64,000 bases of DNA from Chloromonas sp. AAM2 (taxonomy: Eukaryota > Chlorophyta > Chlorophyceae > Chlamydomonadales > Chlamydomonadaceae), in the NCBI GenBank assembly GCA_004335635.1, contig QAXH01002258.1, positions 1 through 64,000 of the forward strand, given 5' to 3'. The notes beneath the pieces were generated by a model that saw nothing but the letters and a program-made list of their open reading frames with translations, was not told the origin of the DNA and searched no databases. The first letter of the stretch is position 1; every line of letters begins with the position of its first letter. Positions 49,176 to 60,229 of this stretch are shown here, piece by piece. Both the position numbers and the translations under genes were made by a program.

Positions 49176-52100
49176 ATGAGGGGCCGACATGGCTCTACTG
49201 GTTTCGGATTGAGGGGTTGCATACGACAGCGCACAATGGCTGCATGGATGTGTGGGTGCCCCACAGGCGATGGGCTGGCTGCGAAGCTGTGGAAAGCTTC
49301 CGAGGTGACTGGCGGGCGATGGAGACCTGGATACAAACTTAAGCTTTCTGCACCTGCAGTGGCTTGAATCAACATGCTCTGTCATGCAGGTCATCGTATA
49401 TGAGTCACTGCATTCTCCATTCGTGAAATCACTGGCCCAAGGCACACTGCCCAAGTAGGTGGCAAGCCTGCTCAAAATTGCCACCAGTCATGCACAAGAC
49501 AAGGACATTTAGGGATTCCACTTGCCTCACAATACACACCAGTCACGCTTGCTTGAGTTCATCCTTGTGATTCTTCAGGCATTTCACAGCACGGATGGTG
49601 CTTGCGCACAGGCCCTTTCACAAATGTGTGCTGCTTGCACTGCTCACTCAGGTGTGCCTTCCAGCACTACGTGGCTCAAGATGCCTTCTTTCTTCGGGTA
49701 CGTGCCATTCAGAGCAGGCAACAGGGATTACACCTCCTGGACATTCCAATTGCCAGCGAAAACCCAGTGATGCTTGAAGCAAACGCAGCAATAGCTGCTG
49801 GGAAGCGAGGCCACTGATGCCATCTGTTATGTGCTGTGCCACTATTTCCAGCAGCTTCCCTGTGCCCAGTCCTGCAAGTGCTTGGTGCTGCCTGGCCTGC
49901 TCCCACCCTGTCAGCTTGAGTCAGCTACGGCCCTTCAGTGTCTGTTTGTACTCACGTGGTTTGTGTTGGTTTGCATTGGCATGCAGTACTTTGCACGTGC
50001 CTATGCGCTGGCCATGGCCAAATGCGACCCCTCCCACACCAAGCAGGAGACCTTTGATAAGGTAAAGCAGCTCACTGAACAGCACAAGAAACAACATAAG
50101 GCACCAGAATGCTTGCTGCTTCAAACAGCAAGCAGTGCCTTCACCCCTTGAAGCATAGCCAACATCTTGCTGTGCTTAGTAGTACCTCTTACCAAGTGAG
50201 GATGCACACACTAGCAGGTGGAAGCCAGCACCGGAACTTTCGATCATGTTTAGGTGTTCACTGCTTCATGCCAGTCGAGTGTCCTTAAATCAATCGCTCT
50301 GCGTAAGAGCCTGGCTCTTACTTCACAACCCGGCGTCTCTCCTGGCAGCCATTGCAGGGGATGCCAACCGTGAGTTGCTCATCTTGTTGTTGCAAGCCTT
50401 TTGCTGCTGACCGTCTAGCCTGTCCCATCATCTATTGTGAACGCTTGTGAATGTGCATGGTGCAGCTAGCCAGCCTGCTGCGCGGTGTGCATGAGGAGCT
50501 GCGGCTGCATGGCGCGTACGCGGCCGCATGGGGTGTGGACCTGGCAGGGGTGGCGCCCAGCCCGGCCACACGGGCCTACACGGACTGCCTCATGGAGGTG
50601 GCACAGGACAGCTCCATGGTGGGCGGAGCACCAGTGCATACAGTGTATGGATATGGTTTAGATTTAGTACAGTCACTCAAGAATTCGACTGAAGCGATAA
50701 CAGATAGTGGGGTTCAGTCACCAGATGGTTGGAAATGCCATGGCAGGCACTTCACCTTCAGGCATGCAGGAGTGATGCAGAAGTGACGATGTCTCTCACA
50801 GCGTCAAGGTGCAGAGGGCCGGGTCAATGGTGCTAACAAGCAGCAGGCAGGCAAACCGACATTGAAAAATTGCTCTTTTGGGGTTGCACTGGCGAAAAAG
50901 GCGGCAATTGCCAAGAAACTGTGAGGAATGCTTGGACGCTTGCCGAGACGCATCAATTGCCGTACTCCAGCCTGCATTGCTTTTGCAGAGTTTATTGTCG
51001 GGTAGGTTGACTGAGTGTTGGCAGAGTACAGGATGGGCAATTCCTCGCCTTTGTGTGTTCCCTTCAATTACAGGGTGTGGCCGAGGTGCTGTGCGTGATG
51101 ACTCCTTGCTCCCGCCTGTACGGCTTCCTGGGCTGCACATTGGCAGCGGCCTACCCTGATGCTAACCACGAGTATGCGAGCTGGATCAAAACATATAGCA
51201 GTGCAGAGTATAACGTGAGTGTCCGACGGTGCGCTTGTTGCATCAGCCTCTCAAGAACACAGCACCATGTGCCTAAGCTGTCATGAGCGTTCTCATCCAA
51301 TGCATCCTTAGATCTGTTGGCAAGCGTGAACGAGGAGCATCCGCAGCCTGCGTTTGAGCAGACGTCAATGGGTGCCCACATGCTGGAAGTGTATCCACCT
51401 CACATCATTGAAACATGTGTGCATTGCTCTACACTTGTCAGCTGCGCTCTACCTTGTATGCGTATACAGGCCATTCCTGACATGAAAGAGGCGTTACTGG
51501 AGGAAGTAGCTGTGGGCAGCAACGAAGGTGAGAGAAACATCACATAACAGTAGAAACGCCATCAGGGTTTTTCCTGATCCTAGATCTGCGCGATCGCCAA
51601 CAAGCATTGTTGATGCGGCTGCTGGAGCCAGAGATAACACAATATCCAGGATGAGATCGGTGGCGCTCGGCCGGGGTGTTCGGCAAGGGTTGTGCAGGGA
51701 TGCAATCATGCGATGCATCGTGCCACCCTTGCAGCCGGCAGCGTATCGTCGTTATGCCAGGCTTGCCCTCAATGGAGCTTGTCCGTCTCTGTCGCCCACC
51801 GTTAAGGGTAAGCCTATGTATCGCCCACCACATGTCGGCTCCATGCAGTTGATGGCGTCATGGTTGAAAAGCCCAGCAAGGAAGTGGACGGTACATCAAA
51901 TTACCAAAGCACCAGCACGCTTTGGGCAATGCATGTATTAGCAACTCACGAGCTAACCACAGGAGCTTGATACCGGCAGGGTGTGCACAGGGGCGTCACA
52001 ATACAGGCTGTTGCTGCACTATGCCTTCTTTGGTTCGTGCAGGCCGTCTGCTGAGGCTGTATACACGTGCCATGCAGCTGGAGGTTAACTTCTTTTCTGC

Positions 52101-55100
52101 ACAACCTAGCACCCCAACTCCAAGTGAGTCTCAGTGGTGTCGCTGCTTGCCTTACTCTTGTTGGACGCCATCTGTCTGCCTCATGGTTGCTGTGCCCACC
52201 ACACCACAGTGCCTTACAATAAATGTCCAACTTTTTGTGCAGCTGTCTGAGGGCAAAACCACGATGGCTTTGCTCTGAAATGGCATTCGCCTGATGACAG
52301 TGTGTAATGCGTGCCATCCGTGGAAGTGCTGGACAGGGCACCATGCTGCTGCACAGTGATTGCCCAGCTGTTTGTGCTTCCCGAAGTCATGAGGTCGGAA
52401 GATGATGATCCTGCTCTGAAGCAGCATTCGCATTTGAAGGGCATGAAGCCCGGTGGCAGTGTAGCCAGTGGCTGTCTGGTTAGAAATCTGTGTTGTACGT
52501 AACGCTCGTGTGATATCACGTGCTGCTCTCCCTCAGGACCCATCCGAAGTCTTGTGGTGGATTTTGATGACACGTGCACAGAAAAGGACACGGTTTCTCT
52601 ATACTTTGAAGCAGCAGCTGAAGTAGCACAAAGGGTGAGGCATGGAGGGGTGGTGCACGGGGGCATGGCGCCCACCAGCCATTTATGCGGGCAGTGCATG
52701 CATGTACGCACAAGGTTTTCTTGCATTAATCGCACTGTATGCCACACTTCTGGATGACCATGCTCCAACAATGTCAGTTGCTGAGCACCTTTGGGTCGAG
52801 CTCATCCATACATATATTGTATCAGTATTGCACAACGTTTTGACAGGCAGCCAGCAGCATAAGGAACTAAGCTAGCACGTCTGGCAGCAGGTCTATTGAG
52901 CGTTGCCCGAGCCTTGCTGTTGTCTTCTGTTCTCTCTCTCTGCAGTCCAAGGGGCCTGAGGCAGCCCAAGCCCTGCAAGAAACCGCCAAACAGCTGTCAG
53001 CCAACTACTATGCACAGTACACAGCGTTCATGCAGGAGCTGCTGCCTCAAGACAGCAGCAGCACGGGCACAGGTTCAGCCGCTGCCTACGACCCACAGGG
53101 ACTGGCTCAGTTCCTAGACGCGCTGTCGGACTTTGATGCGCGAATGATGCAGCCGGTGCAGGAGTCAGGCATACTATCTGGTGGGTGGTGGGCCCTCTGG
53201 GCTCTGGTGGATGGGCTGGCCGAGGGTGTCGAGAACATGTCATCATGGATGTTCAATTGAACACCACCAAAGAGTGCCTGGCGTGCTGTGTGGGTGCGGG
53301 GTTTGGGTTGGGCGCAGTGGTAGACACAGGGCTGTGTTGGCCTTCTTCGTGCGCACTCACAGCGGACAAATGCCCGCAGCGGACAAAGCACTGTGAAACG
53401 ATCATGGCCTCATGTGTGTAGCAAGAGCAAAATGCCTTGCCTGCTGGTTAGAGCAACCGGTTTTGTGCCGCTGCTCGTGCAGGCCTCGCAGAACGCGACC
53501 TGGTAGCCGCTGCATCCCGGGTGCAGCTGCGCCCCGGGTGCCGCACCGTATTAGAGCGTGCCCTAGCCCTAGGCCTGCCCACACACGTGCTCTCCGTCAA
53601 CTGGTCAACGCAGCTGATACAGCACGCACTGGGTCTGCAGCGGCAGCTCAAGCCAGCACTACCGGCCAGCCTGCAGCTGGGGCAGCAGCGGCCGCCGGTG
53701 CTGGAGCTAATGCAGGGGGGTGCGCAGGTGGCGGCGGAGGTGGCAGCGGGCGAAAACTTGCTGGTGGCGAACCAGCTGGAGATGCAGCAGGTGTGTGCAT
53801 GGGCTGGTGCCTGCACATGGGCATGCGTGCGTGGGACAGTGTCTGCACATGGGCGCGCGTGCGTGGAGTGTGGACATGAGCACATGGTTGCACATATGTG
53901 CTGCCGATAGGTGGAATAAACAGCAGGTGATGCATCAGCTTGACCCCGTGTGCCCTGCATGCCACAGGGTGCGGACGGGCAGGCCGTGTCTACCGGGCGT
54001 GTGCTGAACGCGCTGTCGTGTGCACGCGACAAGGCGTTGGCGTATGCAACACTGGCGGGCGGCGCGCGGGGGATTGGGGCCGCGGCGAGTGTGTATGTGG
54101 GGGACTCCACCACCGACCTGCCGGCATTACTACAGGTGGGGTTACGCGGGAAAACGGTGGCAGTGACAATGTTAGTGGCGGTGGTGATTGTGGGAATAGG
54201 CCAAGGACGCCAAACCAGTGAAGATGCATACTACCCATGTGCAACTCCAACGGCTACTGAACCAACTGACAGCTTGGGACTGTTCACCTTCACTCGTGCG
54301 GTCACAGGTGGGACTGCTTGCCCGGTCGCTGTCGCGCCTGACCACAAATCATATGCTCTGAGTGGTTGCTGCTCTGCTGCAGCCTGTTGCCCTGCCACAG
54401 CCTATCAGTCGCTGCACTTCGCCCTTGCTTGTGCCCCAGGCTGATTACGGTGTTGTGGTGGGCGGCAGCAGCTCCCTGCGCAAAGTGTGCACACGCTACG
54501 GGGTCACACTCAAACCGCTGGCAGCCGCGCCCATGGACGGAGCAACGCCCTCGGGTGCGGCATACTGGGCTCTGAGTGGCTTGCCAGAGCTGCATCATAT
54601 GCCCAACCTTTGCATGGTCTGCTAGCGTTTGCACTCGGTGCATGCAGGCCCCCTGCTGCATTTTTTACTATACCAGCTTGAAAGGAATACTGTGTGTGGC
54701 TCTTGGGTCACGTAAACATGCAGCGCTGTTATTGTTAGCTAGTCAACTTGTGCCTGCGCCTCACATGTGACTGTCATCCTGTCAACCTGCTAATACGGCA
54801 TGTGCTGCATTCCTCAGGTGTTCTATACGAGGCTGCCAGCTGGGCCGAAATAGAGGCATTCCTGTTCGGACCCCGCAGCTACGAGGCCCACCCTTACAAG
54901 GAGCAGATGCTGGCGGTGCGTGCCGCATGGAACCACCCACCCACCTCTGCCACCACCGCAAGCAACACACAACCTACAGCTACATCGTCTACACTGTCCA
55001 CTACTAACGGCCATGCAGCCAACACCCGTGTGAACGGTGGTGATGCAGTGGTGTCCAGCCCGACAGGGGCGGGAGAGCGGGGCGTGGGTGTGTGGGCGGA

Positions 55101-58100
55101 GGGCGGGGCGGCAGGCCGGGCCGGGGCACCGCGTGTGCCCGTTGCGCTGACCATTGCTGGGTCCGACAGTGGCGGTGGTGCGGGCATTCAAGCCGACTTA
55201 AAGGTGTGCAGGGGCGGTCACATCACAATAGGTCTTGATGGGCAGCACAGGAGGCAGGACAGTCAGTCATGGCACGTCTGGAAGTCAGCGGCGGCCTGAT
55301 AGTGGTTGAACAGGTCAATGATAGTTTGTTGATGTCGCCAGTCGTGGGCTGCCCCAGGTTGATCCCGGCGGGTCTGGCTGTGTGTGAAGGCCATTATCTT
55401 GATTGCTTGCTTGATAGGGCACCGCAGCTCAACACATGCATGTGCCCACCTTCTTCTGTGCGCAGGCCATGCAGGCGTGCGGTGTGTTTGGCACCAGTGC
55501 CCTGGCTGCCCTCACCGCTCAGAACACACACGGCGTCCAGGCCGTGCACGTGACACCCCTGGACATGCTGGCAGCACAGGTGAGCGCTTGGGAGGACTGC
55601 TCAAACAACCTGCCAGCCTGTATCGATCAGATTCCCGACTGTCCAGCATCACAGCCACACGCAGTGAACATGCAACAAATACAGCATGATGATGACTGGC
55701 AGAGGGGTCAGCCATTTGGTGTTAGCCAGGTGTCCTGCAGATGTATGCAACAAGCATGTGATGATCATGGGTGACCAGGCTTGAACATGTTGCTGGGTCC
55801 TGTCCTGGACTGCAATGCACCAGGGGGCTGCCTTGCAAGGTGGTTAGAATCATAATGTTTGTGTGCCTGCCCTGCAGGTGGACAGTGTTTTGAGTGACCT
55901 GGGTGTGCATGCGGTCAAGACAGGTATGCTGCCTACCCCTGAAGCCGTGAAGCTCGTCGCGGATAAGGTGGGGCGGCATGAGACTGGGCGGGAATGTCGT
56001 TGAGCCCATGGCACCAGGGTTACCAACTGCTGTGGAGGACTGGGGCACCATGACCTGCTCATTCAGGGCCAAGGCTGGACCAGACTGGTGCCTGCACTGT
56101 CAGTCTGGGATTATTTTTCTTTCTTGTGACTGCTCGGTTCTGCAGAAGGTACAGATAGTTCACGACCACCAGACGTGGAAATTGGAAAAGGTTGCCTGTG
56201 CAGGTGGTCCTTCCCTTGCCATGTCACTGTCTTGTGTGTTCCTACTACACGTTCAGATCCCTCAACTGTTTGAAACGTAGTTGCTGGTACAAAGTCCCTC
56301 CATCCACCCGGGTTTGACACTGCGCACACTGCGCGACATGGGCGTGGATATGGTAGTGGTTCATCCTGGACACGTTGCTGACGCTTACATCAGGCTGACT
56401 CAGGCTTGGAGTGAAGGTCCTGCATTCAGATCATGTCAAAAATCCCATTCTTGTACTTTGTTCCGCCTTGCTTGACAGGTGCGGCAGTATGGCGTCAGTC
56501 GGTTGGTGGTTGACCCAGTGATGGTGTCCACCAGCGGCCACGAGCTGGCTGGGCTGGAGGTGGCGGCGGCGCTGGCCCAGCACCTGCTGCCCCTGGCGCT
56601 GCTGGTCACACCCAATCTGCCGGAGGCAAGCGTACTGCTGGGTGGGTGCGGCAGACAAGACCCGGTGCACCTGACCGGTTGGCAAAAGCCAGGGCACGGA
56701 ATGCTATTGCTATGCGTGTGTGGCTATTTAGAGCTGCTGGACCTTTCAAGCTCAATATGTGTGTCATTGATTTGCACCACGCCTCAACTTCTCCCTTTTT
56801 TGTGATTAAGCACGTTGAGAGGCTGCGCCATTCTGTGAGATTACCAGCACAGTCAGATGATGAAATATTCATTGCGATTCCTGCACCCTGCAAAACTTCC
56901 ATCAATCTGAGAATTCCACACAATTGCTTTTCATCAACCCCTCAAAGATATGCTTTCCATGCCCTGTCCAGGTGGCCGTGAGATCCTGAGTGAGGCTGAC
57001 ATGTGCCAGGCAGCTAAAGACCTGCACGCCAAACTGGGCTGCCAGGCAGTGCTGGTAAAGGGAGGCCACCTGGTGGGCAGCGGCTGCAGGATCCCCACCG
57101 AGATAGGCAGAGACCTGGATTCGACTTCAGGTGATGATGTGGGGTTTTGGAATCAGCACCAGCAGTCCTTTGCAATACGAGTATGATGATGTTGTACATG
57201 AGGCTTGAGCCATCTTCTGTTTGACCTGTCGCACGATACAGATGTACAAGGACACTGATTCACTCATTGATTCACTGACTCACTGACTCACTCACTCACT
57301 CACTGACTCACTCACTCTCACTGACGCACTGACTCACTCACTCACAGGCATCGCCAATAGCCTTCCTGTTGATGCAGTGGTGCACGAGCAAGTGCCACCG
57401 CTACATGCGGGCCTGCAGGCATCAGGCGGGTTGGTGACGGACGTGCTGTTTGATGGCCATGAGCTGCATGTGCTGCGGGCACCCACGCTACCATGCAAGA
57501 ACACGCATGGAACTGGTAGGTTGGTCAAGGCTGGGTTAATTGAAAATGTGTGAGTTGCCGCATGACAAGCAGCCGGAAGAAGCTCTTTGGTGCCTTGACA
57601 GCACAATGTCACAACTCCAAGAGCATGAAAAGGCTGCACTGCACTGAGGGATACCTCAATGTCACAACTCCAAGAGCATGAAAAGACTGCTCTGCACTGA
57701 GGGATACCTCAATGACATGCATGGCAGACGGCCCTACATGCAACCATGCTTCCGCCTGCCCGCACTGTCTGCATGTAGGGTGCACACTGGCGTCTGCTAT
57801 CACATCCTTCCTAGCGCGGGGGCTGCCCGTGCTGCCTGCCGCCATCAAGGGGAGAGAGTACCTATACGACTGCCTCAGGTAACACATGGAAGGAGTACGT
57901 TGGAAATGCAGGCACAGCGCAGAACAGCAACCGACTGTGTTCAGTTTAGCTGTTTGTGGGTCTTGATCAAGCCTCTTCAGACACGTGGTCGGCTTGATTG
58001 TCCGGCTGGAAGCGCAACCACCTCGAGAGCATCCCAGGGATGATGGCATGGTCATTACGGTATCTTATCACATGCGGCAACAGTGTGTATGGTGCACCAT

Positions 58101-59798
58101 GTCACTTGTTTTCACTTTCCTCTGCCCTCCCTTCACACACAAACCCACACCCACTTGTACAGGCACAGCACACACCTTCATATCGGCACCGGCGTGCAGC
58201 GGCCGTTCAACCACGGCTGGCAACTCAACGACTGGCAGCGCAACCACGGCTCTCCCGCGCCGGGTCAGGGCCTAGTGAGCCGCTGGGCGCACGAGGACGT
58301 GCGGAAGGCTATGCTGCTGTACGGGGTGGCGGACTCCGGGCACAATGCAAAGCACGGCCGGACGATGGAGGAGGCCGTTGCAGCGGCGGTGGCGGGCGGC
58401 ACCACCATCATTCAGGTGCGGGAGGGGGTGTGCGTGTCTGCAGTAGGGTTGTGAGTCTCATAGTGTCAAGAACCACAGCTTGACATGTGCATTACGTGGG
58501 AGGCAGGGTGCGGGTGGGTGCAAGCAGCGGTTCATTGTTTAGTTGCCAGGTGCAGCTGTGGCTTTGGCAGTCCGATGGTGGCACTGCGATGGAAATCAGC
58601 AAACAGCAAACAGCAGAGAACACTGGTGTCTGTGCCAGTGGGCTTCTTGTAGCCGGCGTTGTCCACATTGATGAGGCTGTTTTGCCTCTTGCGCTGCTGG
58701 TAAAGATACGTTGTTGGTGCTTGCAGATTCGCGAGAAGGAGTGTGAGGGTGGGCTGTTCCTGGAGCGTGCTGCAGCTGCCCTGAAGGTGGGGCCGGCAAG
58801 AAGCGACGGGGTGCACTGTGCTGTTGGTTGTCCGGCAACACATCTCTTCTGCACAGCAGTAGCCACTTGTAACACAAACCTCGTGGTGCCAGCAGCCCAT
58901 CAACAGCCTGCGCAGGCACAACGCTGGTTAGAAGGCAAAGGGATGCACCTGATCTCGCATTTCCTGGGTGGGACACACTGCACATGTTTTCCACGGTCCT
59001 CCTTCCAACCCCCTCACTTGTTTGACCTCCCAGGTGTGTCGTGCGGCTGGAGTGCCTCTGATCATCAACGACCGCATCGACATCGCACTCGCTCTGGGAC
59101 CGGACGTGGGTGTGCACATCGGTCAGGCGGACATACCTGTGCATTTGGCGCGCGCCCTCCTGGGTCCCGGGCGCATGCTGGGCGTGTCCGTCAAGACGGA
59201 AGATCAGGCCAGGGCTGCGGTGGCGGGTGGGGCGGACTACTGTGGCGTGGGCGCAGGTGAGGCAAGACACAGAGCCGTGATCAGGGAAAGCGGCTTGCTG
59301 TAGAAATGTTTAAACACTGGAGAAATGCTGGGAGCAGCTAGTTTGGCCCCCGATGTCCTTGTCTCATTTCAACCACACTGCCTGCCTGCTCCGACTTAAC
59401 TTTTGGAGAGACACAGCAACTGAAGAGGTGGGCTGAGAGGAATTGGTAAACGACTACACAATACCACTTGTCACGGGGGCACCTGCCCATTCACCAACTG
59501 TATCACAACCAGCACTTCTCCCTCGTGTTGCCTCGCAGTGTATCCCACCACGACTAAGGTCAAGACACGCGTCATTGGCTTGGAGGGCCTGGCTCAGGTT
59601 GCGGCTGCCGCCCACCCCGTACCCATCGTTGCCATAGGTGGCATCAAGCAGCACCACATACCGGGCGTCATGGCCTCTGGCGCAGCGGGTGTGGCAGTGG
59701 TGACTGCCATCTTTGACCAAGAGGACGTCACAGCTGCAGCGCAGACACTGCGCACAGACATCGAAAAGGCCTGCCAGGCAGCGAATACGGCTAGCTAG
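49176..59798 (+). CDS. Four-domain thiamin enzyme: TenA - HAD phosphatase - ThiD - ThiE (TH2-TH1 fusion)
   Basis: Twenty-four exons in one phase: 49176-49304, 49390-49454, 49652-49697, 49987-50061, 50466-50618, 51074-51214, 51470-51527, 52043-52123, 52537-52634, 52946-53180, 53483-53790, 53968-54135, 54440-54575, 54818-55203, 55466-55579, 55878-55967, 56479-56641, 56972-57130, 57348-57515, 57779-57878, 58163-58415, 58727-58786, 59034-59256 and 59539-59798; about 1,222 residues. TenA (about 35-249): [37 protein letters not shown] thiamin-phosphate phosphatase (about 250-600): DFDDTCT at 258, GDSTTD at 508, [11 protein letters not shown]. After a Thr/Ser/Gly linker, ThiD (about 670-957): [37 protein letters not shown]. 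ThiE (about 985-1222): [45 protein letters not shown]. Arabidopsis has TenA-HAD (TH2) and ThiD-ThiE (TH1) as separate proteins. The N-terminus is Arg/Gly-rich and could be an organelle signal. The exon at 54440 may end at 54575 or one codon later. Confidence 0.94.
57253..57346 (+). repeat. CACT/GACT tetranucleotide microsatellite
   Basis: Repeated CACT and GACT units run right up to the acceptor of the 57348 exon of the thiamin gene, replacing the usual polypyrimidine tract. Confidence 0.85.
57608..57713 (+). repeat. 53-bp tandem duplication in an intron of the thiamin gene
   Basis: GTCACAACTCCAAGAGCATG ... GAGGGATACCTCAAT is present at 57608-57660 and again at 57661-57713 with two substitutions. 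Confidence 0.9.
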
Positions 59799-59917: not shown

Positions 59918-60035
59918 GAAGTTGTCCAATGTGGGTCTTTGGTTGGTTAATGGTTTGCTGCGAAGAAATGCTAACTCTGCTGCAAAATTGCACGCAAAAC
60001 CGAAACACAACAACCTGGGACTCCCAACCGCAAAC

Positions 60036-60089
60036 GCTCACTCATCTAGTGTTGCTCACTCATCTAGTGTTGCTCACTCATCTAGTGTT
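60036..60089 (+). repeat. 18-bp unit repeated three times
   Basis: GCTCACTCATCTAGTGTT occurs three times without interruption. Confidence 0.95.
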
Positions 60090-60229
60090 GCGACCACACG
60101 TGATCTTATCAAGCCCGTTTCATTGCAGTGTGCCCACAGAGCATACAGCGACAGTCCCTAATTTCCGATCAGCCTGAGCTAGACGGGACATTACACCCCA
60201 TGTTAACCACCAATTCAATATTTTGCCTG

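Follow-up and report, generated by a model that had tools for sequence, protein, structure and literature searches.

In the window analyzed here, the 64,000-nucleotide (nt) stretch from positions 1 to 64,000 of Chloromonas sp. AAM2 contig QAXH01002258.1, one nuclear gene (positions 49176 to 59798, + strand) very probably encodes a multifunctional four-domain enzyme of the late thiamin pathway, its activities being predicted from family membership. The domains lie on one chain in the order TenA, HAD phosphatase, ThiD, ThiE. An earlier note on this DNA had proposed that the TH2 pair (TenA plus HAD) and the TH1 pair (ThiD plus ThiE) are joined on one polypeptide; the single frame, the Pfam order, and the catalytic motifs of the four domains bear this out.

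When we rebuilt the gene from the window, the coordinates and motifs given earlier were right. Twenty-four exons, separated by 23 introns that are all GT...AG, splice to a single open frame of 3648 nt, i.e., 1215 codons plus TAG, running from ATG 49176 to 59798. At the base composition of the window, the chance that 1215 codons would stay open is P ~3e-21. The earlier note had the 24 exons keeping a single phase; the single reading frame holds, but intron phases 0, 1, and 2 all occur, and the constant property is the reading frame. The translation start is less sure: the first in-frame ATG after the upstream stop is M1 (49176), and the alternative is M21 (49236), with the context ACAATGG. The exons, with the amino acids (aa), motifs, and basis of each assignment, are as follows.

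49176..49304, +, exon 1: aa 1-43; alternative start ATG 49236 (M21)
49390..49454, +, exon 2: TenA; GT-AG; Pfam PF03070 aa 49-241
49652..49697, +, exon 3: TenA (Asp75, QDAFFL); gene model, motif check
49987..50061, +, exon 4: TenA; gene model
50466..50618, +, exon 5: TenA; gene model
51074..51214, +, exon 6: TenA (Cys168, MTPCSRLY: TenA_C-like); aligned with LLPCYWLY of B. subtilis TenA
51470..51527, +, exon 7: TenA; gene model
52043..52123, +, exon 8: TenA end (Glu236); gene model, motif check
52537..52634, +, exon 9: HAD motif I (VVDFDDTCT); gene model, motif check
52946..53180, +, exon 10: HAD; gene model
53483..53790, +, exon 11: HAD motif II (VLSVNWS); gene model, motif check
53968..54135, +, exon 12: HAD motifs III (RDK) and IV (GDSTTD); PF12710 aa 454-517
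54440..54554, +, exon 13: HAD; gene model
54818..55203, +, exon 14: junction, 386 nt; HAD end to 54870, linker 54874-55140, ThiD start 55141-55203
55466..55579, +, exon 15: ThiD (TAQNT); gene model, motif check
55878..55967, +, exon 16: ThiD (KTGML); gene model, motif check
56479..56641, +, exon 17: ThiD; gene model
56972..57130, +, exon 18: ThiD; gene model
57348..57515, +, exon 19: ThiD (NTHGTG); gene model
57779..57878, +, exon 20: ThiD (Cys919 of GTGC); gene model, motif check
58163..58415, +, exon 21: ThiD end and ThiE start; gene model, Pfam
58727..58786, +, exon 22: ThiE (IREKE); gene model, motif check
59034..59256, +, exon 23: ThiE (NDRID, GVSVK); gene model, motif check
59539..59798, +, exon 24: ThiE (YPTTTK, AIGGI) and stop TAG; TIGR00693 aa 1003-1199

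Catalytic motifs are present for all four domains, which Pfam places at aa 49-241 (TenA), 253-398 and 454-517 (pieces of HAD), from 674 (ThiD), and 1003-1187 (ThiE). ThiD scores 281.2 bits with TIGR00097, the model for hydroxymethylpyrimidine phosphate (HMP-P) kinase, over its cutoff of 204.95, and ThiE, directly behind it, scores 186.8 bits with TIGR00693, over its cutoff of 145.1. TenA (PF03070, 93.3 bits versus a cutoff of 22) is followed by HAD, the order found in TH2. Cys168 aligns with the active-site Cys of TenA, and Cys occupies this position in 28 of 28 aligned rows. The four HAD superfamily motifs (DxD, S/T, K, and GDxxxD) are present as DFDDT, LSVNWS, RDK, and GDSTTD. The bacterial ThiE-ThiD-TenA model, NF007070, gives 382.9 bits, under its cutoff of 761, and its domain order differs. 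Nor does the TH1 portion stand as a free protein in which a plastid transit peptide precedes ThiD: TenA-HAD comes first, and ThiD begins near aa 664.

Several points weigh against reading these domains as one complete set of activities. The catalytic positions were picked from motifs of the window itself, so finding them there is no independent test. With the salvage equivalog TIGR04306, TenA scores 97.7 bits, under the cutoff of 130; because that cutoff is missed, we file the domain, on its sequence, as TenA family, TenA_C-like only. HAD is marginal, PF12710 giving 29.6 bits for the whole protein versus a cutoff of 27, with no single stretch passing alone. Compared by sequence with the PDB, HAD had no clear relative (best E, 0.008), and the HAD fold was absent among the rows listed in structure comparisons, which ThiD/ThiE or TenA chains fill; the structure models were those of relatives P0001 and P0236, the latter truncated within HAD. 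The thiamin monophosphate (TMP) phosphatase activity of the HAD domain is predicted by analogy, from its likeness to plant TH2. As for the rest of the pathway, ThiC, ThiM-family, and TPK matches lie elsewhere in the assembly, and Thi4 matches are weak; the assembly contains at least one bacterial-looking contig, and the ThiC, ThiM, and TPK matches are not strict proof for the alga.

The junction between the two halves lies in exon 14, where an 89-aa linker connects the last part of HAD with the first part of ThiD, open in frame with zero stops on rebuilding, as had been claimed for 54818-55203. At the base composition of the window, the chance of an open frame is P ~0.03 for the 89-codon linker and ~0.007 for the 128 codons of the exon. 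Because P is ~0.03, the open linker by itself is weak evidence, which leaves some room for two adjacent genes, TH2 and then TH1, joined only by a mis-modelled junction exon. The linker is, however, partly conserved. When it alone (aa 576-660) was compared with 120 relatives, with low-complexity and composition corrections off, Haematococcus P0011 matched with 38% identity (E, 2e-9), and the residues right behind HAD are nearly identical in the two proteins (RSYERHPYREQM..AW in P0011). Judged from the sequences, this conservation is stronger evidence for the junction than the open frame is. If the frame is extended into intron 13, a stop follows after 23 codons; if into intron 14, after 31. One relative, P0068, extends from the tail of TenA across HAD and on into ThiD on one chain; its name has what we take to be the format of a transcript-assembly record, and it looks transcript-derived. 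The conserved linker, the early stops in introns 13 and 14, and P0068, together with 16 named green algae that have this order on a single protein (see below), make separate genes very unlikely. The predicted single polypeptide is a real and conserved fusion, and we infer that the exon 14 junction is transcribed in Chloromonas sp. AAM2.

How widely the fusion occurs emerged from a search with the full protein, which gave 198 relatives among the 7992 best word-sharing candidates scored; on the best 120 of these 198 we mapped the four window domains, counting TenA matches of <60 aa as absent. The same domain order, which the earlier note had suggested seeking in other chlorophytes, was found in 27 of the 120 listed relatives, 16 of which are named green algae: Chlamydomonas incerta, Chlamydomonas schloesseri, Gonium, Raphidocelis, Edaphochlamys, Volvox carteri, Volvox reticuliferus, Myrmecia, Pleodorina, Scenedesmus, Haematococcus, Sanguina, Bryopsis, Apatococcus, Coccomyxa, and Ostreobium. 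Beyond the 16, one same-order protein is labelled Tetstr1, presumably Tetraselmis. A fusion "in one algal gene" had been announced; the gene is real but not singular, since many green algae share the fusion. In databases the named fused proteins are mostly hypothetical or unnamed; one carries the name phosphomethylpyrimidine kinase and another the name TH1. The other orders among the 120 were ThiE-ThiD-TenA (36), HAD-ThiD-ThiE (28), ThiE-ThiD (19), ThiD-ThiE (4), HAD-ThiD-ThiE-TenA (3), and other (3).

We examined 31 relatives with no matched TenA (28 from the full-protein search and 3 from a search with the TH1 half). Because, by a simple pattern, the last TenA helix before HAD is kept in 26 of the 31, many of these relatives look like truncated gene models, as they probably are; 16 start at the Met inside that helix. 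The five without it are P0025 (C. eustigma), P0036, P0037 (UWO 241), P0043 (Pedinophyceae), and P0128, which begins inside HAD. With the helix kept in so many, repeated loss of TenA is doubtful; in annotated genomes (e.g., Chlorella) the missing TenA may reflect either a truncated model or a real loss. We also rejected near-contig-length open reading frames (ORFs), such as P0016 (3537 of 3850 nt), as proof of transcripts, since genomic DNA with few introns may be their source; P0031 and P0032, which share 85-86% identity with P0016 across residues 219-1178, come from long contigs. In Ostreobium quekettii there are two distinct copies, P0018 and P0223, one with TenA and one without matched TenA. 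P0055 has HAD-ThiD-ThiE plus PF01144, presumably the CoA transferase family, in one 1366-aa model, in which annotation may have run two genes together.

An in-frame ATG at 54907 lies inside the window linker. From it, one locus could give two products, the full mRNA encoding the four-domain enzyme and a second transcript, made by an internal promoter or alternative splicing near intron 13, encoding ThiD-ThiE with the linker as a plastid transit peptide. By eye, Ser, Thr, Ala, and Gly are abundant in the linker downstream of this Met, along with some Arg and few acidic residues. Yet when linkers were surveyed in 28 rows (3 without an anchor were left unmeasured, and 2 of the 25 measured are TenA-less), 18 of the 25, window included, had no Met and 13 were ≤30 aa. 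Introns 12 and 13 contain neither TGTAA nor AATAAA, which carries little weight since neither occurs within 600 nt past the stop codon. A second product from this ATG is thus improbable.

Where the four-domain enzyme would act is a separate question. Passages of PMC8331165 and PMC11169455 place plant TH1 in the plastid and plant TH2 in the cytosol and/or the mitochondrion. The earlier note had held that the fusion puts a mitochondrial-type and a plastid-type activity under one targeting signal, so that location must differ from plants. We likewise infer that it must differ for at least one half, but "mitochondrial-type" is only half of the story for TH2, which is also cytosolic in plants. We counted the residues before TenA in 26 fused proteins, leaving out P0006 (an odd model) and P0048 (truncated) and including P0033 (without matched ThiE); the starts of the metagenomic rows are unsure. 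The median was 13, and 21 of the 26 proteins (12 of the 16 named algae measured) had ≤17, these short stretches containing, when pooled, more acidic than basic residues. In contrast, 108 free TH1 proteins had a median of 55 residues before ThiD, with more Ser/Thr and basic residues (this set was 112 rows less 4 that lack the ThiD start; most of the 108 come from land plants, and they are not independent). Thus, the fused N terminus is, on its sequence, usually too short for a transit peptide. Because fused proteins usually begin at TenA, cytosolic synthesis of TMP is likely, and we favor, with some reserve, an enzyme that is mainly cytosolic, TMP synthesis included.

Two observations speak against a cytosolic enzyme. 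Five of the 26 fused proteins have at least 20 residues before TenA: Scenedesmus (31), Haematococcus (66), P0017 (probably Tetraselmis, 94), Ostreobium (28), and Trebouxia (20). The window protein itself, if started at M1, has 32 residues before TenA, with 5 R/K and 1 D/E, so that organelle import is conceivable. The fused enzyme might then enter the plastid or the mitochondrion by way of its N terminus, only one half having moved relative to plants; such import bears on location alone, and the fusion could hold alongside it. Against import stand the 21 short and, when pooled, more acidic than basic N termini, and M21 fits their pattern, leaving 12 aa before TenA, near the relatives' median of 13. 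On balance, import is doubtful.

If the family assignments are right, the TenA domain (TenA_C-like) would hydrolyze aminomethylpyrimidine to hydroxymethylpyrimidine (HMP) in salvage, ThiD would phosphorylate HMP to HMP-P and then to the pyrophosphate HMP-PP, ThiE would couple HMP-PP with thiazole phosphate to give TMP, and the HAD domain would dephosphorylate TMP to thiamin, which a separate TPK would convert to the cofactor. An enzyme without a transit peptide would act in the cytosol, and HMP-P and thiazole phosphate, if made in the plastid as in plants, would have to be exported before coupling. Substrate channelling between domains is possible; the whole-fusion model of relative P0001 (C. 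incerta), with low-confidence linkers at 572-601 and 897-921 and a predicted template modeling score (pTM) of 0.56, appears to suit a beads-on-a-string arrangement no less than a fixed tunnel.

Within the alga's own assembly, among the best candidates scored, all 10 matches to the TH1 half and all 12 to the TH2 half were inside the fused gene. A Pfam TenA search of the whole assembly gave zero matches, probably because of short exons; the protein search did recover the gene. Seven consecutive ThiC matches (L011/L012, G000:C772:3808-7362) on a 10.5-kb contig are probably exons of one gene. A scan of the assembly for thiamin pyrophosphate (TPP) riboswitches (best 49 of 2441 candidates scored) gave two matches, neither of them at the fused gene, and none at the ThiC contig. 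One (L009, G000:C1681:7665-10300; 70 bits) is beside an intronless TonB-receptor-like gene and, by eye, reads as bacterial. The other (L010, positions 1501-1596, G000:C1991:10698-10793; 64.8 bits) is just upstream of an ORF starting MAENLTVAYAVLGVYLLLIGGCG. This 116-aa ORF had no Pfam match; it may encode a transporter resembling those of the riboswitch-bearing SSSF genes that a passage of PMC4260697 reports for Chlamydomonas and Volvox. An Rfam scan of the window at gathering scores gave zero matches. By eye, introns 18 and 19 (57255-57345 and 57600-57715) contain short tandem repeats, of the CACTCACTGA type and a ~54-base unit present twice, and at 60030-60095, ~240 bases past the stop codon, the 18-base unit CTCACTCATCTAGTGTTG is in three tandem copies.

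We built trees for both halves, and they agree on the main groups. For ThiD plus ThiE, 70 rows were picked from the window and 237 proteins, and 13 were then left out; the resulting tree of 57 rows, rooted on bacteria, has a green-algal clade of 36 rows (support, 99/96), with the window beside Haematococcus (83/86). In the TenA plus HAD tree (31 rows), the green-algal clade has 18 rows (89/82), and the window is again beside Haematococcus (81/53). The land-plant TH1 rows among the matches listed are free proteins, and in the ThiD plus ThiE tree a free TH1-length protein of Cymbomonas is nested within the green algae. The HAD-ThiD-ThiE-TenA proteins P0059, P0057, and P0061 cluster together in both trees. 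Seven metagenomic same-order proteins (P0035, P0038-P0041, P0045, and P0048) branch outside the green algae in the ThiD plus ThiE tree. Two of them, P0035 and P0048, group next to the clade of land-plant TH1 (92/81) together with the free TH1 P0232, which places plant TH1 in the midst of four-domain proteins. The four-domain enzyme could then be an old state that predates the parting of green algae and land plants, plant TH1 and TH2 being halves left after a gene split in which the TH1 half gained a plastid signal. We consider this rather unlikely. Forcing the seven proteins into the green algae was not rejected by the approximately unbiased (AU) test (p-AU, 0.07; subsets, 0.19-0.28; the groups were chosen after tree inspection), the deep branches have moderate support (85/76 to 94/80) and some are long, and the outgroup is three rows, one of them very long. 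A search for TH2 relatives gave only two proteins, from Volvox africanus and Discosporangium, and zero plant TH2.

The TenA-HAD-ThiD-ThiE fusion is unmentioned in the passages seen of PMC5635689, PMC3476827, PMC9544697, PMC4260697, PMC6731263, PMC8331165, PMC10470507, PMC12633428, and PMC11169455 and in the titles and abstract starts returned by literature searches; earlier thiamin papers outside that scope may mention an algal fusion. The fusion is a new combination of known enzymes, not a new kind of system, and it is in databases as predicted proteins. It ties salvage and synthesis to one chain. Plants make TMP in the plastid and dephosphorylate it in the cytosol or mitochondrion, and therefore TMP must cross a membrane; if green algae do both steps with one protein, that crossing is absent, and HMP-P and thiazole phosphate may move instead. 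Green algae may thus finish vitamin B1 in another place than plants do. Gene surveys that treat TH1 and TH2/TenA as distinct may tally the same green-algal protein two times.

Plant TH2 (Arabidopsis At5g32470) consists of TenA and then the HAD TMP phosphatase. The window protein resembles it in this order, in the HAD motifs, and in the TenA Cys, but TH2 is a separate protein, whereas in the window ThiD-ThiE continues the same chain. Plant TH1 shares the ThiD-ThiE order, and among the land-plant rows checked the window protein is 49% identical to Calypogeia, 47% to Physcomitrium, and 45% to Arabidopsis suecica; the plant protein differs in being free, mostly with a longer, transit-like N terminus. 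The bacterial ThiE-ThiD-TenA protein (NF007070/PRK09517), whose order is that of 36 of the 120 listed relatives, the named ones being bacteria, has three of the four activities on one chain but in another order and with no HAD. In yeast THI20 (HMP/HMP-P kinase plus TenA; PDB 3rm5), ThiD and TenA are also joined, but ThiD precedes TenA, and THI20 is not known to have HAD or ThiE. The Cafeteria roenbergensis-type proteins (P0059, P0057, and P0061) have the same four domains on one protein, in the rotated order HAD-ThiD-ThiE-TenA, with TenA at the C terminus.

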